DNA from: Flavobacterium crassostreae
Lineage (GTDB): Bacteria; Bacteroidota; Bacteroidia; Flavobacteriales; Flavobacteriaceae
Length of the DNA stretch: 64,000 nucleotides
Assembly (NCBI RefSeq): GCF_001831475.1
Contig: NZ_CP017688.1
Coordinates: 1,736,001-1,800,000 of the forward strand
Direction of reading: 5' to 3'
A model generated the notes under the pieces. The model worked only from the letters and a program-made list of their open reading frames with translations. It had not been told where the DNA came from and did no database searches. Shown here piece by piece: positions 3,784 through 59,177 of this stretch (its first letter is position 1; each line of letters begins with the position of its first letter). The position numbers were made by a program, and so were the translations under genes.

Positions 3784-3795
3784 TGGATTTTTTTT

Positions 3796-3880
3796 AGCCT
3801 TGATAGCAGCGATATCCTTTTTATGGTTTCTTTTTTTTAGAAACCATAAAAAGATAAAGCGGATAGCGAGAATAGCTCCT
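3796..3880 (-). repeat. Interspersed hairpin element, copy A
   Basis: Read on the minus strand it begins AGGAGCTATTCTCGCTATCC and ends AGGATATCGCTGCTATCAAG. Between these lies a perfect 15-bp stem (3817-3831 with 3839-3853). The end blocks match copies B (5740-5817), C (58993-59055), D (49102-49170) and E (15529-15596), while the central stem sequence is different in each. It sits between the M42 peptidase gene and the downstream YjdF-like gene. Confidence 0.75.
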
Positions 3881-5739: not shown

Positions 5740-5817
5740 AGGAGCTATTTCCTGCTATCCGCTACAATCTACCTCGCCGAACCCCGTCTCGGCAGGATTT
5801 CCACTACTATCAGGGCT
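5740..5817 (+). repeat. Interspersed hairpin element, copy B
   Basis: Begins AGGAGCTATTTCCTGCTATC and ends AGGATTTCCACTACTATCAG. The central part (about 5771-5795) forms an imperfect CCTCGCCGA/TCTCGGCAGG stem unrelated in sequence to the stem of copy A. It lies between the DUF4294 stop and the rRNA leader. Confidence 0.75.
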
Positions 5818-6047
5818 AGGAGAGCGGCGTCCCAAAGCTAATCTCATTCCAAAGTTAAGCCTACCTATATATAAAGAAAACAGATACACCTGCAAAAAAC
5901 AACCACCAAACCCCTAAAACCGGCAGAATAACCGCAAAGAAGATAGCAAAGACCTATAAAAGCAACAAAGAAGCATTTGTATAGAATTAAAAACAAAGCA
6001 GTTAGCGATTCTTATTAAGAAAAGGTAAATAAAAGGTAAAAAAAGTA
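5818..6047. other. Intergenic stretch before the rRNA promoters
   Basis: A-rich on the plus strand, with no convincing ORF, no tRNA-like fold and no -7 box. It separates repeat copy B from the first rRNA promoter. Confidence 0.5.
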
Positions 6048-6564: not shown

Positions 6565-8078
<1,514 letters not shown>

Positions 8079-8138
8079 CTAGAGCCTTAGTGTTAGCGCA
8101 AGCACGCTAGGGAAAGAGACGAAAAGAGAAGTTGGTCA

Positions 8139-8163
8139 TTATGCTTAAAGTTTTATTACTCTT
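8139..8163 (+). other. 16S processing stem, 3' arm
   Basis: TTATGCTT and TATTACTCTT pair with the leader at 6482-6506, enclosing the 16S gene. Confidence 0.6.
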
Positions 8164-8207
8164 GCTGTTAATTTAAAAAAAAGAACAAATAATTTAAGAA
8201 TGAAGAG

Positions 8208-8281
8208 TGTCTCGTAGCTCAGCTGGTTAGAGTACTACACTGATAATGTAGGGGTCGACAGTTCGAGTCTGTCCGAGACAA
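8208..8281 (+). tRNA. tRNA-Ile (GAU)
   Basis: Cloverleaf of 74 nt. Acceptor TGTCTCG pairs perfectly with CGAGACA; the anticodon arm CTACA-CTGATAA-TGTAG gives anticodon GAU; the T-loop is GTTCGAG. Discriminator A at 8281. CCA is not encoded. Standard position in the 16S-23S spacer. Confidence 0.97.
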
Positions 8282-8375
8282 CAATTTAGGATTAGTTATA
8301 TATAAGGAAATTTTAGAAGTATGAGTATGAATACCTTAATTCAAAATTCAACATTCATAATTTAAGATTAGAAAT

Positions 8376-8449
8376 GGGGGATTAGCTCAGCTGGCTAGAG
8401 CGCCTGCCTTGCACGCAGGAGGTCAACGGTTCGACTCCGTTATTCTCCA
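8376..8449 (+). tRNA. tRNA-Ala (UGC)
   Basis: Cloverleaf of 74 nt. Acceptor GGGGGAT pairs with ATTCTCC using two G-U pairs; the anticodon arm CCTGC-CTTGCAC-GCAGG gives UGC; the T-loop is GTTCGAC. Discriminator A at 8449, CCA not encoded. Second tRNA of the 16S-23S spacer. Confidence 0.97.
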
Positions 8450-8476
8450 CAATTCCGAAAGGAAAAAAGTTCATTG

Positions 8477-8490
8477 ACATATTGAGATAA
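8477..8490 (+). other. 23S processing stem, 5' arm
   Basis: ACATATTGAGATAA is complementary, with one mismatch, to TTATCTCAGTATGT at 11511-11524 downstream of 23S, forming the precursor stem of 23S. The related words TTGACATACTG (6269-6279) and GACATATTGA (6433-6442) also occur in the 16S leader. Confidence 0.6.
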
Positions 8491-8574
8491 GAAAATATTA
8501 CAAGTAGAAAGCGTTTTTTACTATTAGTAGTAAAAGACAAAAAAAACGGTCTTAATTAATTTTAAGATTGGTAC

Positions 8575-11455
<2,881 letters not shown>

Positions 11456-11510
11456 CACCCTTTCCAGCCTCGTAAGAGGCTGGGGAAACTTTCTAATTAT
11501 ATTTTTTTCT

Positions 11511-11524
11511 TTATCTCAGTATGT
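11511..11524 (+). other. 23S processing stem, 3' arm
   Basis: TTATCTCAGTATGT pairs with 8477-8490. A shorter stem-loop (TTTCCAGCCTC / GAGGCTGGGGAAA, 11461-11488) follows the mature 23S end directly. Confidence 0.55.
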
Positions 11525-11583
11525 TACGATATTCTGTAATGTTTATTAGCACCATGCTAATTTACCCATTGCAAAGCGACCTT

Positions 11584-11690
11584 AAGGTGGTTATTGCGGC
11601 GGGGCTCACCTCTTCCCATCCCGAACAGAGAAGTTAAGCCCGCCTGCGCAGATGGTACTGCAGTTATGTGGGAGAGTATGTCGTCGCCTT
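11584..11690 (+). rRNA. 5S ribosomal RNA
   Basis: About 107 nt. Helix I pairs AAGGTGG (11584-11590) with TCGCCTT (11684-11690). The conserved CCCGAACAGAGAAGTTAAGC block lies at 11620-11639. It ends 8 nt before the operon terminator. Confidence 0.95.
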
Positions 11691-11698
11691 TCTTTATG

Positions 11699-15406: not shown

Positions 15407-15528
15407 AGGATTGCAGTTTGTAGTAAAAAACAATTTTTTTTGTTTTTTGTTCTATTGGTTGGTCTTTCTGCTTTGGTTGGTGTTGTGGTTTGATGGCGCG
15501 GTTTGATGGTCTAAAACGGGGCTGCAAG

Positions 15529-15596
15529 AGGGATGGTAGTGGAAATCCTTTTATGGAGCTTGGCGCAATAAAAGATTGTAGCGTACAGCCCGACCC
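15529..15596 (-). repeat. Interspersed hairpin element, copy E
   Basis: On the minus strand it begins GGGTCGGGCTGTACGCTACA and ends AGGATTTCCACTACCATCCC. The centre holds an ATCTTTTAT/ATAAAAGGAT stem. Its first 17 bases are identical to those of copy D. It lies between sdaA and pheT. Confidence 0.75.
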
Positions 15597-15622
15597 TGCT
15601 GTAATGGAATGGAAGCAGGGTC
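15592..15622 (-). terminator. Hairpin after sdaA
   Basis: Perfect 9-bp stem GACCCTGCT (15592-15600) / AGCAGGGTC (15614-15622), beginning 15 nt after the sdaA stop and overlapping the outer end of repeat copy E. Copy D has a similarly placed 9-bp hairpin. No clean T-run. Confidence 0.5.
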
Positions 15623-47919: not shown

Positions 47920-48681
47920 TTAGCGGATTTCTTTTATAAAATCTGCTATTTTATGGGTGCCGTTCTGGGTTAAATGTTGGATAAAGGCACTCCCAATAAT
48001 GGCGCCTTGGGCGTATTGTGTAGCCTGCTGAAAGGTTTCTTTATTATTAATACCAAAACCAACTATTTGAGGGTTTTTTAACTCCATGTTGGCAATTTTT
48101 TTGAAATAAGTTTCTTGGGTTGTACCAAATCCAGATTCAGATCCTGTAACGCTGGCAGAACTCACCATGTAGATAAATCCGTCGGATACGCTATCAATAA
48201 AACCAATACGCTCGGCGCTGGTTTGTGGGGTTATCAAAAACACATTGATTAGGCCGTGTTTTTCAAAAATGGTTTTGTAGTGTTCTGCATATACATCCAC
48301 TGGAAGATCTGGGATGATCAATCCATCAATACCTATTTCTTGGCATTTTTTGCAAAAAGCATCTACTCCGTATTGTAGCACGGGATTGAAATAGCCCATG
48401 ATAATTAGCGGAATTTGTACGCTTTCGCGAATGGTACGCAGTTGATCAAAAAGCACTTGTGTGGTCATGCCGTTGTGTAGGGCTTGGGTAGAGCTGGCTT
48501 GAATGGTTGGACCATCTGCTAGAGGATCACTAAATGGCAATCCGATTTCGATTAGGTCTACGCCGCTTTTTTCTAAATCCTGAATGATTTGTACGGTATC
48601 GTTTAAATTGGGGTATCCTGCCGAAAAATAGATGGATAGTATTTTTTTTCCTTCTTGTAATTTTTTAGTTATTCTGTTCAT
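47920..48681 (-). CDS. trpA: Tryptophan synthase alpha subunit
   Basis: 253-aa TIM barrel that cleaves indole-3-glycerol phosphate to indole and G3P. Catalytic Glu45 (DLIEIGLPFSDPLADG) and Asp56 are present, as are the phosphate-binding GFGINN segment and IIGSAFIQ near the C-terminus. Works with TrpB as an alpha2-beta2 complex passing indole through a tunnel. Last gene of the trp operon, but separated from trpB by a GGCT-fold gene and a repeat element. Confidence 0.97.
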   Translation of the reverse strand: MNRITKKLQEGKKILSIYFSAGYPNLNDTVQIIQDLEKSGVDLIEIGLPFSDPLADGPTIQASSTQALHNGMTTQVLFDQLRTIRESVQIPLIIMGYFNPVLQYGVDAFCKKCQEIGIDGLIIPDLPVDVYAEHYKTIFEKHGLINVFLITPQTSAERIGFIDSVSDGFIYMVSSASVTGSESGFGTTQETYFKKIANMELKNPQIVGFGINNKETFQQATQYAQGAIIGSAFIQHLTQNGTHKIADFIKEIR

Positions 48682-49041: not shown

Positions 49042-49101
49042 GCTTTTTGTTTTTTTTTGAATTTAAATGGAATACCTCATCTGTAGTGTTTGCTTTGCGT
49101 T

Positions 49102-49170
49102 AGGGATGGTAGCGGCATCCTTTTTGTCCCTTTTTGGAGGGACAAAAAGATATAGCGTACAGCCCGACCC
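49102..49170 (-). repeat. Interspersed hairpin element, copy D
   Basis: On the minus strand it begins GGGTCGGGCTGTACGCTATA and ends AAGGATGCCGCTACCATCCC. The centre is a TTTTTGTCCCTCC/GGGACAAAAA stem. Lies between trpB and the GGCT gene. A 9-bp hairpin (49173-49196) precedes it. Confidence 0.75.
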
Positions 49171-49172
49171 TT

Positions 49173-49196
49173 TTGTCCTGATTTTTTTCAGGACAA
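49173..49196. repeat. 9-bp hairpin adjoining repeat copy D
   Basis: TTGTCCTGA (49173-49181) / TCAGGACAA (49188-49196) with a T6 loop. Its TTGTCC word also occurs inside the central stem of copy D. Repeat copy E carries a 9-bp hairpin in the same relative place. Confidence 0.5.
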
Positions 49197-49236: not shown

Positions 49237-50418
49237 TTATAGTTTGAAATAATCAATGTAGGTGTTTAGGTCTTTGTCGCCGCGGCCCGAGAGGTTGATC
49301 ACTACAATGTCGTCTTTTTTGAATTTCATTTTGTCTAGTACGGCAAAGGCATGGGCGCTTTCTATGGCTGGAATTAGGCCTTCGAGTTTGGATAATTTTA
49401 AGCCCCAATCCATGGCTTCTGCGTCTGTGATGGATATAAACTGGGCTCTTCCGGTGGCGTACAAATTGGCGTGCATCGGGCCTACTCCGGGGTAGTCTAG
49501 GCCTGCGGATATGGAGTAGGGTTCTGTAATTTGTCCGTCTGTGGTTTGCATTAGTAGGGTTTTGCTTCCGTGGATTACGCCTACTTTTCCTAGGGCGGAG
49601 GTGGCGGCACTCTCTCCGGAGTCTACGCCTAAACCAGCGGCTTCGACGGCAATGATGTTCACGTCTGTTTGGTCCAGAAAATGGTAATAGGCTCCTGCGG
49701 CATTGCTTCCGCCTCCTACGCATGCAATTACGTAATCGGGGTTTTTTTGGCCTTCTTTTTCGAGTAATTGTTCTTGGATTTCTTTGGATATTACGGATTG
49801 AAAACGCGCTACCATATCTGGGTACGGATGTGGCCCGACTACGGATCCGATGATGTAGTAGGTGTCTACGGGGTTGTTGATCCAATCTCTAATGGCCTCG
49901 TTGGTGGCGTCTTTTAGGGTTTTGGAGCCCGAAAGTGCCGGACGTACTTCTGCTCCTAACATTTTCATGCGTGCTACATTGGGTGCTTGACGTTGGATGT
50001 CTACCTCGCCCATGTAGACGATGCATTCTAGACCCATTAGGGCACAAACGGTTGCGGTTGCTACGCCGTGTTGTCCGGCTCCGGTTTCGGCAATGATGCG
50101 TTTTTTGCCCAAACGTTTGGCTAGTAAAATTTGCCCTATGGTGTTGTTGACTTTGTGTGCACCGGTGTGGCACAAATCTTCTCTTTTGAGATATATTTTG
50201 GTTTGGTATTGTGCGGATAGACGTTCTGCAAAATACAAGGGAGTAGGCCGTCCTACGTAGTCTTTTAGGAGGGCATCAAATTCTGCTTGAAATTCAGGTT
50301 CGGCGGTTATTTTTAGATAATTATGACGCAATTCTTCTACATTTGGATATAACATTTCTGGAATGTAGGCTCCTCCAAATTCGCCGTAATAGCCTTTTTC
50401 GTTTACGTTGTATGACAT
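49237..50418 (-). CDS. trpB: Tryptophan synthase beta subunit
   Basis: 393-aa PLP enzyme condensing indole with serine. PLP-lysine Lys89 ([10 protein letters not shown]), catalytic Glu in AETGAGQHG, phosphate loop GGGSNA and Na+/K+ site region are all present. Of the TrpB1 type that pairs with TrpA. It starts 6 nt after the trpF stop, so is tightly coupled upstream; downstream, 195 nt with repeat copy D separate it from the GGCT gene. Confidence 0.98.
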
Positions 50419-50424
50419 CTTGTT

Positions 50425-51162
50425 TTATTTTTTGTGGTTGGTATGTTGGTAGGTGTTTAGGGTGTTTATTGCCTCTAAGCACCTGGATTTGTTTTTTAAT
50501 GCGGGTTCTGTTTCAAATTTGCTGTTAACGTCTATGGCGTAAACGGGCAATTTGGTTTTTAAAATTTTAGAAACAGCATCCATTTGGTCAAGACCGATGC
50601 CGCCACTTAGAAAGAAGGGTTTGGTGGAGGGATAGTTCTCTAGCATTTTCCAGTCAAAGCTGGTTCCGTTGCCCCCGGGCAATTTGCCTTTGGTATCAAA
50701 AAGGAAATAGTCACAGAGGGGTTCAAAGGGTTTGAGTGCGTTAAAATCAAAGGTTTCTAATACAGAAAATACTTTGATTATTTGGATATTTTTTGGTAGG
50801 GTTTTTTGTAATTCAGTACAATAAGCCACGGATTCGTTGCCATGTAATTGCACGGCTTGCAAATGGTATTGGTTTACTTTTTGGAGAATGTTTGGTATGG
50901 TTTCTTGAACAAAAACGCCTGTTTTTTGGATGCTTTTGGGCAATTCAGGCAGCACTCCATCAAAATACCGTGCTGATTTTTCCCAAAATATAAATCCCAT
51001 ATAATCGGGTTGGAGTGCCGCTATTTCAAGAATGTTTTCCGGGTATTTCATGCCACAGATTTTTATCTTCACGGTAGTGGGTTTTTTTGCTGGGGTGCAG
51101 TGGGTATCTTGGGTTGGGTTTGTCATGGCGTTTTGGTTTGCTGTGCGTTGTTTTTTATCCAA
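50425..51162 (-). CDS. trpF: Phosphoribosylanthranilate isomerase
   Basis: Amadori isomerase of tryptophan synthesis. Signature blocks: KIKICGMK with the catalytic Cys, QLHGNE, the phosphate loop DTKGKLPGGNGTSFDW, FLSGGIG, and the catalytic Asp in AIDVNSKFE. The 245-aa frame has a polar, low-complexity extension of about 30 residues before KIKICGMK; the true start may be Met13 (51126). It begins 16 nt after the trpC stop and ends 6 nt before trpB. Confidence 0.95.
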   Translation of the reverse strand: MDKKQRTANQNAMTNPTQDTHCTPAKKPTTVKIKICGMKYPENILEIAALQPDYMGFIFWEKSARYFDGVLPELPKSIQKTGVFVQETIPNILQKVNQYHLQAVQLHGNESVAYCTELQKTLPKNIQIIKVFSVLETFDFNALKPFEPLCDYFLFDTKGKLPGGNGTSFDWKMLENYPSTKPFFLSGGIGLDQMDAVSKILKTKLPVYAIDVNSKFETEPALKNKSRCLEAINTLNTYQHTNHKK

Positions 51163-51178
51163 AAAAAAGATTTATGGG

Positions 51179-51964
51179 TTAAAGTGCTAGTTGCTCGATA
51201 AACTGAGTTGCTGCTTTGCCAGGGTTATCGGTTTTCATGAAATTTTCGCCTATCAAAAACCCTTTGTAACCATAGGGTTTTAATTCTTGGATGGCTTTTA
51301 TAGAACTGATGCCGCTTTCGGATACTTTGACAAATTCATCCGGAATTTGGGCTGCTAGTTGTTTGCTGAAATCCAAACTTACTTCAAAGGTTTTTAAATT
51401 TCGGTTGTTTACTCCAATCAGGTCTAAGCTGGGCATGATGGATTTTTCTAGTTCTTCTAGATTGTGTATCTCTAGTAAGACTTCGAGACCTAAATTTTTG
51501 GCAAATTCAGATAATGCTTTGATTTCTGGGCGTGTTAAAACGGCAGCGATTAACAAAATCAAATCGGCTCCATGTGCTTTGGCCTCTAAGATTTGGTACT
51601 CGTCTACAATAAATTCTTTGCGTAATAACGGCATGTTTACCGAGGCTCTTGCTAGGAGCAAATCGTCCAAGGAACCACCAAAGTATTTGCCATCTGTTAA
51701 AACAGAAATGCCGCAGGCACCCGCATTTTGATAGCCTTTGACTACTTCTTCTACGGTAAAACCGTGGTTGATTACGGATTTGGAAGGCGAACGACGTTTG
51801 TGTTCTGCAATGATTCCGGTAGTGCTGTTTTTTAAATTTTGGCGTAACGAAATGGTCTTTTTCTCAAAAAAAACGGAGGCTTCTAATTGCGAAACCGGAA
51901 TGATGGATTTTTTGAGAAGGACTTCTTGTTTTTTATCCACGATTATTTTATCGAGTATGTTCAT
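51179..51964 (-). CDS. trpC: Indole-3-glycerol phosphate synthase
   Basis: 261-aa TIM barrel closing the indole ring from CdRP. The family start MNILDKIIVDKKQEV, IIAEHKRRSPSKS (catalytic Lys region), LTDGKYFGGSLDDL, LRKEFIVDEYQI, IGVNNRNLKTF and SESGIS are all visible. Monofunctional, not fused to TrpF. It starts 91 nt after the trpD stop. Confidence 0.97.
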   Translation of the reverse strand: MNILDKIIVDKKQEVLLKKSIIPVSQLEASVFFEKKTISLRQNLKNSTTGIIAEHKRRSPSKSVINHGFTVEEVVKGYQNAGACGISVLTDGKYFGGSLDDLLLARASVNMPLLRKEFIVDEYQILEAKAHGADLILLIAAVLTRPEIKALSEFAKNLGLEVLLEIHNLEELEKSIMPSLDLIGVNNRNLKTFEVSLDFSKQLAAQIPDEFVKVSESGISSIKAIQELKPYGYKGFLIGENFMKTDNPGKAATQFIEQLAL

Positions 51965-52055: not shown

Positions 52056-53048
52056 TTATTTACTTAACTCCTGTAATTTTTTCAATGCTTGCAATGCTTT
52101 TCCAGAAAGTAAACTTTCTTGGGCTTGGGCAAAACCTTCTAAAGGAGTGCACTTAGTAACGGTAACCAAGGCCATTGCGGCATTGGCACAAACAACATTG
52201 TTTTGGGCTTGGGTTCCGTTGCCAGATAGAATATCTGTAAAGATTTGTGCAGATTCTGTAATTGTTTTTCCGCCTTTTATGGCGCTTTGTGTTACACGAT
52301 CTACTCCAAAGGTTTCGTGGGTTAACATGCCTTCCATGTTGGGGGTAATTATTTTGGTTGGGCTAGTTAATGCTATTTCGTCATAGCCGTCTAAGGAGTG
52401 TAAAATAGTAAAATTTACATCCGTATTTTGGTATAAATAGGCGTACATACGGGCTAGTTCTAGGTTAAAAACGCCTACTAATTGGTTTTTAGGAAAAGAG
52501 GGGTTTACCATTGGACCTAACATATTAAAGAAGGTTTTTACGGCAAGTTCTTTGCGTATGGCTCCAACGTTTTTCATGGCTGGATGAAATAGGGGAGCGT
52601 GCAGTATGGTAATTCCGGCTTGATCGATACAACGTTCAATAAAATCTGGATTATTGCTGAATTTTACGCCTAGGTTTTCCATCACGTTGCTGGATCCCGA
52701 GATGGATGAAAGACCATAATTGCCGTGTTTGGCTACCTTTATTCCGGTTCCTGCTGTTACAAAGGATGCTAGTGTAGAAATATTAAAGGTGTCTTTTCCG
52801 TCTCCGCCAGTTCCGCATAAATCAATGGTATTGTAGGCAGATAAATCCACACGAACACATAGTTCTAAAAGGGCTTCTCGAAAACCTGCAAGCTCCGCAA
52901 TACTAATGCTACGCATCATGTAAACGGTTACAAATGCTGAAATTTGACTTGGGTTATAACTTCCGTTTGAAATATTTATTAATACATCTTTAGCTTCTTC
53001 TTTTGAAAGCGTTTCGTGACTAATTAATCGGTTTAATATATTTTTCAT
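52056..53048 (-). CDS. trpD: Anthranilate phosphoribosyltransferase
   Basis: 330 aa. Transfers phosphoribosyl from PRPP to anthranilate. PRPP-binding DLCGTGGDGKDTFNIST, KHGNYGLSSISGSSNVME and the anthranilate-site HPAMKNVGAIRKEL are intact. I place the start at ATG 53048: it is preceded by a strong Shine-Dalgarno-like GGGGGAGG, rare in this window; the frame could extend 4 codons to a TTG. Monofunctional, not fused to TrpG. An 80-nt gap with a small hairpin separates it from trpG. Confidence 0.97.
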   Translation of the reverse strand: MKNILNRLISHETLSKEEAKDVLINISNGSYNPSQISAFVTVYMMRSISIAELAGFREALLELCVRVDLSAYNTIDLCGTGGDGKDTFNISTLASFVTAGTGIKVAKHGNYGLSSISGSSNVMENLGVKFSNNPDFIERCIDQAGITILHAPLFHPAMKNVGAIRKELAVKTFFNMLGPMVNPSFPKNQLVGVFNLELARMYAYLYQNTDVNFTILHSLDGYDEIALTSPTKIITPNMEGMLTHETFGVDRVTQSAIKGGKTITESAQIFTDILSGNGTQAQNNVVCANAAMALVTVTKCTPLEGFAQAQESLLSGKALQALKKLQELSK

Positions 53049-53128
53049 AGCCTCCCCCAACCCTTCCGAAAGAAGGGAGCAACCTACTGGAGAAATAGGG
53101 TTTTAAATTTATATCGTCTTTTGGTCGT

Positions 53129-53758
53129 TTATTCCCCTCTGGGGTTTGGGCTATTGACCCAATTTTCTAACATTTTTTTGCCATTGGGTGTCAATACGCT
53201 TTCTGGATGAAATTGTACTCCTCGGACATCATAGGTCTTGTGGCGTAGGGACATGACTTGTCCGTTTTCGTCATACGACGTGGCTTCTAAGACCTCTGGA
53301 AGCTTAGGATCTACCACCCAAGAATGGTAGCGACCTACTTCAAATTGGGAGCCTAAACCTTCAAATAAAAGTTCGTCATTTACTACTGTTTTTACGTTGG
53401 TAGCAATTCCGTGGTATACCTTATCTAGGTTAGAAAGTGTGCCGCCGTATACCTCGCCAATGGCTTGTTGTCCGAGGCATACACCAAAAATGCTTTTGGT
53501 TGGACCGTACTTTTGGATCACAGCTTTTAGTAAGCCTGCTTCTTCGGGTATTCCGGGGCCTGGAGAGAGTAATATTTTGTCAAAATGAGCAATTTCTTCG
53601 AGGGTAAAGGCGTCGTTTCGGTACACAGTAACCTCGCAGTTTAAATCCTCTAAATAATGTACTAAATTGTAGGTAAAGCTATCGTAATTGTCTATGACTA
53701 AAACGGATTTCCTAATCTCAGATTGAGGAACTGTTGGAGTAGGTATATGGTTGTTCAT
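53129..53758 (-). CDS. trpG: Anthranilate synthase component II (glutamine amidotransferase)
   Basis: 209-aa class I glutamine amidotransferase supplying ammonia to TrpE. Catalytic Cys94 (GVCLGQQ), His and Glu in VQFHPES, and the oxyanion SPGPGIP are present. About 17 polar N-terminal residues precede the usual VLVIDNYDSFTYN start, so Met1 is possible but not certain. Second gene of the operon, 64 nt after trpE. Confidence 0.96.
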   Translation of the reverse strand: MNNHIPTPTVPQSEIRKSVLVIDNYDSFTYNLVHYLEDLNCEVTVYRNDAFTLEEIAHFDKILLSPGPGIPEEAGLLKAVIQKYGPTKSIFGVCLGQQAIGEVYGGTLSNLDKVYHGIATNVKTVVNDELLFEGLGSQFEVGRYHSWVVDPKLPEVLEATSYDENGQVMSLRHKTYDVRGVQFHPESVLTPNGKKMLENWVNSPNPRGE

Positions 53759-53822: not shown

Positions 53823-55223
53823 CTAGATGGTTTCGGCTAGATCTAATGCTGCGTTCAGGGCTCTTAGTTTGTTGTATACTTCTTGCATTTCGCTTTCTTC
53901 GTCTGAGCTGGCTACAATTCCGGCTCCTGCTTGCGAATGTAATTGGTGGTTTTTGCTCAAAAAGGTTCTAATCATTATGGCATGGTTAAAGTTACCTTCA
54001 AAATCCATAAAACCAATGGCACCACCATAAAAGTTTCGGTTTGTTTTTTCGTACTGTTCAATTAATTGCATGGCCCGGTGTTTGGGTGCTCCGCTGAGAG
54101 TTCCTGCCGGAAAAGTATCTGCAACTACTTGCATGGTGTTGGCTTTTTCATGCAAATGGCCGGTTACTTTAGATACTAAATGAATGACATGCGAAAAAAA
54201 TTGTACTTCTCTATAACGCTCCACTTGCACGTGATGCCCGTTGCGGCTCAAATCATTTCGAGCCAAGTCTACAAGCATTACGTGTTCGCTGTTTTCTTTT
54301 TTATCTACAGACAATTGTTTTGCAAGTACAGCATCTTTTTCGTCATCGCCAGTGCGTTTAAAGGTTCCTGCAATAGGATGGATTTCGGCCTTACGATCTT
54401 TGACAATTATTTGTGCTTCGGGCGAAGACCCAAAAATTTTGAAGTCTCCGTAGTCAAAAAAGAAGAGGTAAGGAGAGGGGTTGATACTTCTTAAGGCTCT
54501 GTAGACGTTAAATTCGTCTCCTTTGAAGCCTTGAGTAAATCTTCTGGACAAAACCAACTGAAATACATCCCCTCTAAAACAGTGTTTTTTGGCTAGAGTT
54601 ACGTTGTGTTTAAACTCTTGGTCTGTTAGGTTCGAAAAGCCTTCGCCGTCTTTATTAAATTTATATGTAGCAATGTTGCGAGATTGTAAGAGTTGCTCTA
54701 TCTCTGCAATATTATTGGTATCCTTTAGGCTATGGCAAAAGATATAGGCTTGATTTTTAAAATGATTAATAGCAATAATGTTTTGATAAACGGCATAATA
54801 GACATCTGGGATGGTATTGCTATTTTCTTTTTTGGCAATGTTGACTTTTTCAAAATAGCGCACGGCATCATAAGAAATGTACCCAAAAAGACCATTATTT
54901 ATAAATTTAAAATCATTTTTCTCGGATTTAAATTGACCAGAAAACGCTTGTATTATTTCCGGAATGTTGGTCTGTGGTGTGATTGTTTCTTTGGAGGTAC
55001 TTCCGTCTGGATAGCTTTTGTAAATAGTTTCGTTTTCTATTTTTATGGAAGCAATTGGATTGCAACAGATGTAAGAAAAACTATTGTCACTCCCATGATA
55101 ATCACTGCTCTCTAGCAACAAGCTGTTAGGGAATTTATCTCTTATTTTTAAATACACACTTACAGGAGTAATGGTGTCTGCGAGTATTTGTTTGTACTTT
55201 GTATTTAATGTAAATGATTTCAA
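53823..55223 (-). CDS. trpE: Anthranilate synthase component I
   Basis: 466-aa chorismate-utilising enzyme making anthranilate with TrpG. The N-terminal LLESS (residues 36-40) is the tryptophan feedback-binding motif, so end-product inhibition is expected. The C-terminal catalytic domain has FQLVLSRRF, YLFFFDYGDFKIFGSSPE, HPIAGTFKRTG, VDLARNDL, PAGTLSGAPKHRAM and QAGAGIVASSD. First structural gene of the operon; its expression is predicted to be controlled by the leader/attenuator at 55276-55398. Confidence 0.97.
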   Translation of the reverse strand: MKSFTLNTKYKQILADTITPVSVYLKIRDKFPNSLLLESSDYHGSDNSFSYICCNPIASIKIENETIYKSYPDGSTSKETITPQTNIPEIIQAFSGQFKSEKNDFKFINNGLFGYISYDAVRYFEKVNIAKKENSNTIPDVYYAVYQNIIAINHFKNQAYIFCHSLKDTNNIAEIEQLLQSRNIATYKFNKDGEGFSNLTDQEFKHNVTLAKKHCFRGDVFQLVLSRRFTQGFKGDEFNVYRALRSINPSPYLFFFDYGDFKIFGSSPEAQIIVKDRKAEIHPIAGTFKRTGDDEKDAVLAKQLSVDKKENSEHVMLVDLARNDLSRNGHHVQVERYREVQFFSHVIHLVSKVTGHLHEKANTMQVVADTFPAGTLSGAPKHRAMQLIEQYEKTNRNFYGGAIGFMDFEGNFNHAIMIRTFLSKNHQLHSQAGAGIVASSDEESEMQEVYNKLRALNAALDLAETI

Positions 55224-55275: not shown

Positions 55276-55304
55276 AAAAGGCCTGTCGTGATGACAAGCC
55301 TTTT
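55276..55304 (-). terminator. trp attenuator terminator
   Basis: On the minus strand AAAAGGCTTGTC, loop ATCAC, GACAGGCCTTTT: a 12-bp stem with one G-U pair, then CTGTTTTT. It lies between the leader peptide and trpE. Its 5' arm is also part of the antiterminator (55285-55299 with 55335-55348). Confidence 0.85.
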
Positions 55305-55348
55305 TATATTTATATTAAAAATAATACTATAGGAGCTTAGTTCACGAC
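55285..55348 (-). promoter_or_regulatory. trp antiterminator
   Basis: RNA segment GUCGUGAACUAAGC (complement of 55335-55348) pairs with GCUUGUCAUCACGAC (complement of 55285-55299): 7 bp plus 4 bp around a small internal loop. This is exclusive with the terminator. The first segment begins at the last base of the leader stop codon, so a ribosome finishing the leader would mask it. Confidence 0.75.
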
Positions 55349-55398
55349 TATTGACGTAAAATGTTCCACCACCAAGTATTGTTTATTGTTGTTTTCAT
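55348..55398 (-). CDS. trpL: trp operon leader peptide
   Basis: A 16-residue peptide, MKTTINNTWWWNILRQ, with three consecutive TGG codons (complement of 55366-55374) and a TAG stop at 55350-55348. Ribosome stalling at the Trp codons when charged tRNA-Trp is scarce would leave the antiterminator free to form and let transcription reach trpE. The start is 5 nt downstream of the -7 box, so the mRNA is nearly leaderless. The peptide itself needs no function. Assigned from the sequence and its surroundings, by analogy with attenuators known in other bacteria. Confidence 0.88.
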   Translation of the reverse strand: MKTTINNTWWWNILRQ

Positions 55399-55402
55399 AA
55401 GA

Positions 55403-55434
55403 CAAATATATAAAAATAATTTTGTTTAGTACAA
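55403..55434 (-). promoter_or_regulatory. trp operon promoter
   Basis: Minus strand: TTG (55434-55432), 21 nt, TATATTTG (55410-55403), just upstream of the leader peptide ATG at 55398. Confidence 0.7.
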
Positions 55435-58849: not shown

Positions 58850-58992
58850 TACAAATATTTTTGAGTGTTGTTTTAAAAAAAGAAACAGTTTAAGATCCAA
58901 ACCAGAGTCCGTATGTAAAAGTACTCCATCAAACCCAAAAAAACTTTTTTAAGGAGCAGAAACAATGCGTTTTGTAATAATACACCCACCTA

Positions 58993-59055
58993 CTATCCGC
59001 TGTATCTCTTGTTTTTGCTATCGCAACACAAGAGGATGCCGCTTCTATTAGGGCT
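58993..59055 (+). repeat. Interspersed hairpin element, copy C
   Basis: Begins CTATCCGCTGTATCTCTTGT and ends AGAGGATGCCGCTTCTATTAG (last 20 bases from GAGGATG). The central stem is TCTCTTGT/ACAAGAGGA, different from the other copies. A 277-nt gene-free gap between the GNAT and bestrophin genes holds it; the left outer block seen in A and B is truncated. Confidence 0.65.
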
Positions 59056-59177
59056 AAATTAGGGTATTTTGTTTTTTCAAATACCGTCACATAGATATTC
59101 TGGACAATATACCTAATTTGACCAACAGAAAATACTATTTAGACCCAAAACAAGCTTTTGTATTGGTGGAGATTGCT

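Follow-up and report, generated by a model that had tools for sequence, protein, structure and literature searches.

The trp operon and its leader region

The window, by which we mean the whole 64-kb stretch of DNA analysed, is part of the 3.03 Mb genome of F. crassostreae, which consists of one contig and whose TrpE shares 92-93% identity with that of the best-matching named Flavobacterium species among the genomes compared. On its minus strand it harbours a trp operon with trpE (53823..55223, TTG start) as the first structural gene, followed by trpG (53129-53758), trpD (52056-53060), trpC (51179-51964), trpF (50425-51162) and trpB (49237-50418), and continuing through trpA (47920-48681). A gene of the GGACT family (gamma-glutamylcyclotransferase-like, PF06094; 48721-49041), also on the minus strand, is located between trpB and trpA. 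The best NCBIfam match of TrpE is TIGR00564 with 440 bits (cut-off 518), and the best match of TrpF, with 131 bits, is likewise below the cut-off. The window also contains five matches to the Flavo-1 RNA (RF01705), at 3792-3877, 5744-5821, 15522-15599, 49087-49173 and 58982-59059, of which the one at 49087-49173 (plus strand) falls within the trp operon in antisense orientation, in the stretch separating trpB from the GGACT-family gene. An rRNA operon with 16S, two tRNAs, 23S and 5S is found at 6565-11692 on the plus strand.

Ahead of trpE, the minus strand from 55434 to 55276 reads as a promoter, a leader ORF, an antiterminator and a terminator. The promoter comprises a -7 box (TATATTTG, 55403..55410) and, 21 nt 5' of it, the TTG of a -33-like element (55432..55434, predicted -36 to -34). 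The leader ORF (55348..55398) encodes MKTTINNTWWWNILRQ in 16 codons and ends with the stop codon TAG at 55350-55348, 124 nt 5' of the trpE start; its ATG at 55398 is predicted to be +1. Eight codons after the start follow three UGG codons (TGGTGGTGG, 55366..55374), the putative stall site. Because five copies of TGGTGGTGG are present in the window, where shuffles predict 0.35, a run of WWW codons is by itself no proof of a leader. If the peptide is taken as the criterion, short ORFs of 8-35 codons with WWW are found at three loci in 464 kb of the genome, the leader included.

Arm 2 of the antiterminator (GUCGUGAACUAAGC, 55335..55348), which was delimited by sequence, comparison and folding, begins on the last base of the leader stop codon, while arm 3 (GCUUGUCAUCACGAC, 55285..55299) spans the terminator 5' arm, the loop and the start of the 3' arm. 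Together GTCGTGAACTAAGC (55348-55335) and GCTTGTCATCACGAC (55299-55285) form 7 bp, a 3x3 internal loop and 4 bp, using standard pairs only. The intrinsic terminator (55276..55304) has 12 pairs, five of them G-C, a loop of five and a T-rich tail; one was found by the terminator scan, compared to a mean of 0.0 in 50 shuffles. Since the bases 55299-55285 are common to both structures, antiterminator and terminator are mutually exclusive. The first-pass annotation had described the promoter, the 16-codon WWW peptide, the antiterminator pair starting at the stop codon (55348) and the exclusive terminator before trpE, and every coordinate holds when sequence and folding are inspected. It had, however, taken these elements for the complete set and overlooked a further hairpin, P2 (55341..55360), formed by UUUACG (55360-55355) and CGUGAA (55346-55341). 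When the leader is folded as a whole, the minimum-energy structure includes P2, which is predicted to sequester arm 2. The same fold contains an outer protector stem, P1 (55323..55380; AAUACU at 55380-55375 with AGUAUU at 55328-55323), and a similar stem appears in the Rfam drawing of the family to which this leader belongs.

A known attenuator family and its antiterminator helix

That family is RF01692 (Bacteroid-trp). The leader matches it at 55293..55418 on the minus strand with 67.3 bits (gathering cut-off 49; E 3.6e-6 in 64 kb) over model positions 1-131 of 131, the model ending half-way through the terminator. Table 1 of Weinberg et al. 2010 (PMC2864571) gives RF01692 as a candidate structured cis-regulatory RNA of Bacteroidetes, a 2019 paper places it upstream of the F. 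psychrophilum trp operon and draws a comparison to the leader of E. coli (PMC6414381), and a 2021 transcriptome of F. psychrophilum speaks, where it deals with amino-acid operons, of strong clues for leader-peptide attenuation before them (PMC9723704). The attenuator family is therefore already known, having been published in 2010, and the core idea is not new; the novelty implied by the first-pass annotation was overstated. The F. crassostreae leader resembles RF01692 in scoring over the curated cut-off, in being a cis-regulatory leader of Bacteroidetes and in having Trp codons and a long protector-type hairpin. In contrast, the Rfam consensus is a single long hairpin round the Trp codons which stops inside the terminator, and the antiterminator helix is absent from it. 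In the open-licence literature searched we found no description of leaderless starts or of an antiterminator for RF01692. Our additions are a covarying antiterminator helix, a spread that is under-counted by Rfam, and a predicted leaderless start with repeated switching.

RF01692 matches were obtained in 109 of 149 family genomes (95 of these over the cut-off), in 78 of 121 genus genomes and, with few candidates scored per genome, in 42 of 395 phylum genomes. TrpE is encoded directly downstream of the leader in 107 of the 109 family loci (98 by pattern, 9 by eye). The two exceptions are L033, which ends with its contig, and L056, which has an intervening ORF before trpE. By eye, the ORF between the trp leader and trpE of L056 (genome G044) looks like a GIY-YIG endonuclease, and it may be a mobile insertion into the leader region. 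WWW is present in 106 of the 109 family leaders and WW in the remaining three; the reading frame of the leader and the UGG run are kept in the family, whereas the neighbouring codons vary.

An alignment from the Trp codons to the T-run was made for 161 distinct relatives, based on 162 of 163 loci (L033 was dropped as its contig ends early). In the antiterminator core 92.0% of the cells are paired (shuffle mean 91.1), and two-sided changes are seen in four of seven pairs and in 10 cells, where the shuffle means are 0.8 and 1.0. On each of four measures the observed value was reached by none of 300 shuffles. When the partner was slid by one to three columns, pairing fell to 7-56%; the register -2 also gives 10 two-sided cells, but only 30% of its cells are paired. 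For the terminator the values are 98.1% paired cells and two-sided changes in eight of 12 pairs, with 0/300 shuffles as high. Judged from this alignment, the antiterminator core and the terminator covary. In six divergent leaders (L083, L142, L146, L165, L296, L297) the pairing is kept by compensation, as far as can be seen by eye. The outer parts are less well kept: the distal AAGC:GCUU pairs of the antiterminator are present in 76% of the cells and those of P1 in 75%, and for both the number of pairs with two-sided changes is no better than in shuffles. P2 shows 61 two-sided cells versus 22.6 in shuffles and surpasses all 300 shuffles in paired as well as in two-sided cells, but one slid register scores higher on the latter (79). 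The 61 cells of P2 come largely from a single T-A to C-G exchange, whose 5' base is, by eye, the third base of an Asn codon (AAT/AAC) in leaders like that of F. crassostreae, and the subgroup WWW..FRN is without P2 in that form. Considering alignment and fold together, P2 is likely a protector hairpin over arm 2.

The distance between sensor codons and antiterminator is nearly constant. In 154 of 160 loci (out of 163; L033, L071 and L165 were left out because no terminator was parsed) arm 2 begins 16-19 nt past the last Trp codon. The stop codon, on the other hand, is variable in position and lies between 11 nt before and 10 nt after the start of arm 2 in 159 of 160 loci; the outlier is L107, which has no clear arm 2. 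Arm 2 pairs with the terminator loop together with the first part of the 3' arm: counted from the loop start, its partner covers positions 1-7 in 86 of the 160 loci, and loop bases belong to all of the 15 commonest partner spans (155/160 loci).

In E. coli trpL a short peptide with adjacent Trp codons precedes segments that form a protector (1:2), an antiterminator (2:3) or a terminator (3:4), and a stalled ribosome frees segment 2. The F. crassostreae leader shares the Trp-codon peptide, the antiterminator and terminator with a likely protector, and presumably the freeing of segment 2 by a stalled ribosome. It differs from trpL in that its antiterminator pairs chiefly with the terminator loop and the start of the 3' arm, in that the genome is without a TrpR match, and in the predicted initiation without a leader.

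Distribution beyond the Rfam model

Forty family genomes gave no Rfam match, of which 25 encode a full or nearly full TrpE, three pieces of it and 12 no TrpE. In 23 of the 24 Rfam-missed family loci with a readable upstream region a WW or WWW leader was found; L270, with no leader seen upstream of TrpE, is the sole exception. This brings the family total to 132 leaders among the 133 readable loci of the sample. The relatives missed by the Rfam search are compact and often leaderless as predicted from their box spacing (12 of 22 loci at the spacing of 4-5 nt discussed below, from a set of 24).

We extended the scan to two other orders, in which full-length TrpE is encoded by 20 of the 41 and 9 of the 40 genomes, respectively. 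A WW leader together with a terminator lies within 1.5 kb upstream in 26 of these 29 TrpE loci; L285, L294 and L315 have no readable leader. A looser terminator rule gives 27/29, including one false call (L285). As controls, 31 PabB-like upstream regions and 25 TrpE downstream regions were scanned, and none contained a leader plus terminator; a single chance match in the PabB-like set was on the reverse strand. A third order has TrpE in 41 of 41 genomes, 30 of which gave a locus while the other 11 did not, and here the same scan was positive in 17 of 30 TrpE loci (L379 being doubtful), with five more WW leaders recognised by eye (L360, L361, L362, L374, L377). The Rfam search had no match in the third-order genomes G274, G328, G419, G363, G474 and G519 (all but G274 were identified by handle number), and the weak matches below the cut-off in G621 and G636 are on contigs other than those of TrpE and were not counted as leaders. 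The Rfam search under-counts the spread of this attenuator.

Seven third-order loci (L367, L376, L378, L381-L383, L387) keep a terminator before trpE while the Trp run is interrupted or absent from the part of the sequence displayed; L367, for example, has by eye a W-Q-W peptide. Decay or change of the sensor codons is a possible explanation. Another peculiarity is a second, weaker RF01692 match (46.2 bits, below the cut-off) on another contig of a Flavobacterium genome (G219:C26:24106-24236), which is possibly a duplicated leader.

The pairing of arm 2 with its own terminator was examined outside the alignment by a swap test, performed without L285, L294 and L315 (no leader) and without L262 and L269 (no terminator parsed). 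In 26 leaders of the two other orders the own arm 2-terminator duplex is stronger than swapped ones by a mean of -4.2 kcal/mol (Wilcoxon p 8e-7), and in 21 family leaders by 2.0 kcal/mol (p 5e-4), although among the swaps the own pair ranks in the best tenth in only 9/26 and 4/21 cases, respectively. In the third order arm 2 appears, from the sequences, to match the terminator 5' arm in the classical way.

Start of the leader and proposed mechanism

The first-pass annotation called the start nearly leaderless. Box spacing predicts the AUG not just near the 5' end but exactly at +1. We define d as the number of nucleotides between the -7 box and the first in-frame ATG; at the F. crassostreae leader d is 4. 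In the part of the F. psychrophilum transcriptome that describes promoters, the TAnnTTTG box is at -12 to -5 (PMC9723704), so that with d = 4 the A of AUG 55398 would be the first transcribed base. Among named Flavobacterium loci (the best 80 of 567; the box was not found in one, hence n = 79) d is 4 in 26, 5 in 1, 8 in 1, 12 in 2 and 16-19 in 49; F. frigidarium (L173) and F. flevense (L193) are among the relatives at d = 4. Accordingly, the start would be at or 1 nt from +1 in 27/79 and after about 12-15 nt in 49/79 of them. This set and other Flavobacterium genomes may share species, and the sets are therefore not independent. The Rfam hits of the family (109 loci minus two without box and four without an ATG start) have d of 4-5 in 20 of 103, 6-15 in 33, 16-22 in 47 and above 30 in 3, and the extra set from genus and phylum has d = 4-5 in 3/50 (from 54 loci). 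The number of codons before the first W is eight in 96/103 family Rfam hits, 78/79 named Flavobacterium loci, 48/50 loci of the genus/phylum extra set and 11/22 family Rfam misses.

A gap between the two classes is visible in Flavobacterium, where 3/79 loci fall between d 6 and 15. The idea of a general forbidden zone between leaderless starts and 12-nt leaders is weakened by the other genera, with 33/103 loci at d 6-15, and by the scan-positive loci of the third order, which are mostly at d 5-10 where a box was found, so that it does not hold for the class as a whole. The genome's own genes resemble the Flavobacterium leaders: of 75 genes with a box, counted crudely from first-ATG starts, 10 are at d 3-5 (six of these at d = 4), three at 6-8 and none at 9-12, the others following at 13 and more, a hint of two initiation modes across the genome. 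In a trpE tree (81 rows, 80 of them with a label) the two start states need nine changes, at least seven of which are forced by well-supported branches; because the tree rule calls L197 leaderless while the d count puts it in the other class, the nine may be eight. None of 500 shuffles was as low (mean 24). The start state is thus inherited, yet it switches often.

The rival reading of a ribosome-dependent attenuator with an ordinary short 5' UTR, transcribed from another box 5' of 55398, could draw on a GTTACA/TATAAT pair at 55478-55449 from the sigma-70 scan (three sites versus 2.4 expected), and a d of 16-20, equivalent to a UTR of about 12-16 nt, is the state of 49/79 named Flavobacterium loci and 43/103 family hits. 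Against it, TATATTTG with a TTG 21 nt upstream is like the phylum consensus, d = 4 is found in 26/79 named Flavobacterium loci with a single one at 5 and none at 3 or 6, and a peak at d = 4 exists also among the genes of this genome. We consider the short UTR unlikely for this locus and favour the predicted start at 55398. With respect to the consensus it should be said that a TTG 15-19 nt 5' of the -7 box was found in 59/109 family Rfam-hit loci and 56/80 named Flavobacterium loci, and that the spacer of 21 nt at 55432-55434 is beyond this search range.

Two further explanations would do without the peptide as a sensor. In one, both RNA structures serve a TRAP-like Trp-binding protein or a tRNA-sensing T-box, which they would do equally well. 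Family searches of the genome gave no match for TrpR (controls positive in B. subtilis and E. coli) and none for TRAP (PF02081; control positive in B. subtilis), so that control by either was rejected, and no T-box is among the Rfam matches of the 64-kb window. As moreover the peptide frame and the UGG run are kept while the codons around them vary, a sensor other than the ribosome is highly improbable. In the other, a constitutive terminator stands next to a spurious short ORF with chance Trp codons and the operon is driven from elsewhere. The terminator by itself would be strong, and TGGTGGTGG is present five times in the window, but WW(W) plus terminator precedes trpE in many genera and in three further orders, the control regions were empty (0/31 and 0/25), which led us to reject a chance WWW ORF, and codon spacing and arm 2 are conserved. 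This explanation is scarcely credible.

We consider it very likely that the trp operon of F. crassostreae is controlled by a ribosome-mediated transcription attenuator, a member of RF01692 in a predicted leaderless version. The classical ribosome stalling proposed by the first-pass annotation is supported by the conserved WWW (106/109), the covariation, the fixed spacing of arm 2 (154/160), the adjoining TrpE (107/109) and the lack of a TrpR or TRAP match. The comparison upstream of trpE which it had suggested shows conserved Trp codons and, at the level of the alignment, a covarying antiterminator core and a covarying terminator. The family gave no homologues that lack the Trp codons or the alternative stems, and loci with no readable leader are few (L270 in the family, L285, L294 and L315 in the two other orders, several in the third).

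In the proposed mechanism RNA polymerase would begin on the A of the leader AUG, and a ribosome would load at the RNA 5' end and translate eight codons up to WWW. When Trp-tRNA is scarce, it would stall on UGG, its 3' edge reaching some 4-10 nt beyond the Trp codons and masking the protector 5' arm in part or entirely, while arm 2, 17 nt from these codons, stays free. Arm 2 could then pair with the terminator 5' arm, the loop and the start of the 3' arm, the terminator would be blocked and trpE transcribed. With ample Trp the ribosome should reach the stop codon and cover arm 2, allowing the terminator to form, and after release of the ribosome or in the case of no translation the protector hairpin would hold arm 2, again leading to termination.

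For folding, the ribosome edge was placed 12 nt beyond the first A-site nucleotide. With the ribosome modelled on any W, arm 2 stays accessible; with the ribosome on the stop codon it is covered. RNA up to 55285 folds as the antiterminator with the ribosome on any W (-15.9 kcal/mol) and without antiterminator with the ribosome on the stop codon (-4.1 kcal/mol). When no ribosome is present, P1, P2 and the terminator all form in the full leader (-28.3 kcal/mol). For the full-length RNA the drawn antiterminator (-10.6 kcal/mol) is less stable than the terminator (-16.9 kcal/mol), and the fold contains the terminator even with the ribosome on any W. The antiterminator would therefore have to form first, that is, the decision would be one of timing. 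Two further points count against the model: arm 3 extends into the terminator 3' arm, hence the antiterminator forms late, and stalling at the first W may keep most of the protector 5' arm exposed.

A more tentative reading, which as a whole falls somewhat short of probable, combines five statements. Most trp operons of Bacteroidia would be run by a single attenuator design, far wider than RF01692; the leader AUG would coincide with the RNA 5' end or lie no more than some 15 nt from it; arm 2 would grip the terminator loop outside one order; initiation in Flavobacterium would follow one of two modes, either directly at the 5' end or some 12-15 nt into the RNA, because Shine-Dalgarno sequences are absent in these bacteria; and the trp leader would have flipped modes repeatedly, while codon spacing and helices stayed fixed. 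If true, this would be a natural experiment on the timing of ribosome loading relative to RNA polymerase. The analysis turns a computational motif of 2010, under-counted by the catalogue search, into a mechanistic model with covariation for the key helix, and it provides predicted leaderless and short-UTR counterparts of the same attenuator from close relatives. Leaderless mRNAs are few in the family (5.5% of mapped mRNAs in F. psychrophilum according to the figures given in PMC9723704). The counterparts make it directly testable how ribosome loading is quick enough for control of RNA polymerase when Shine-Dalgarno sequences are missing. For Bacteroides thetaiotaomicron a share of about 3.7% is stated for 5' UTRs below 10 nt (PMC7366714).

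Attenuators starting at the AUG are also described from other phyla. In the account of Streptomyces lividans trpL1 (PMC8079986) an 18-residue peptide, MFAHSTRNWWWTAHPAAH, has WWW after eight residues, the transcript is leaderless and a terminator lies before trpE. The F. crassostreae leader is alike in its eight residues before WWW, its predicted leaderless start and its terminator before trpE, but the two belong to different phyla, and the same account puts leaderless transcripts at 17% in that strain (PMC8079986). The trp attenuator RNA rnTrpL of Sinorhizobium meliloti has its 5' end at the ATG of the 14-residue peTrpL (PMC7298713), like the start predicted here; S. meliloti is, however, an alphaproteobacterium, in which the released RNA and peptide are described as having roles in trans (PMC7298713).
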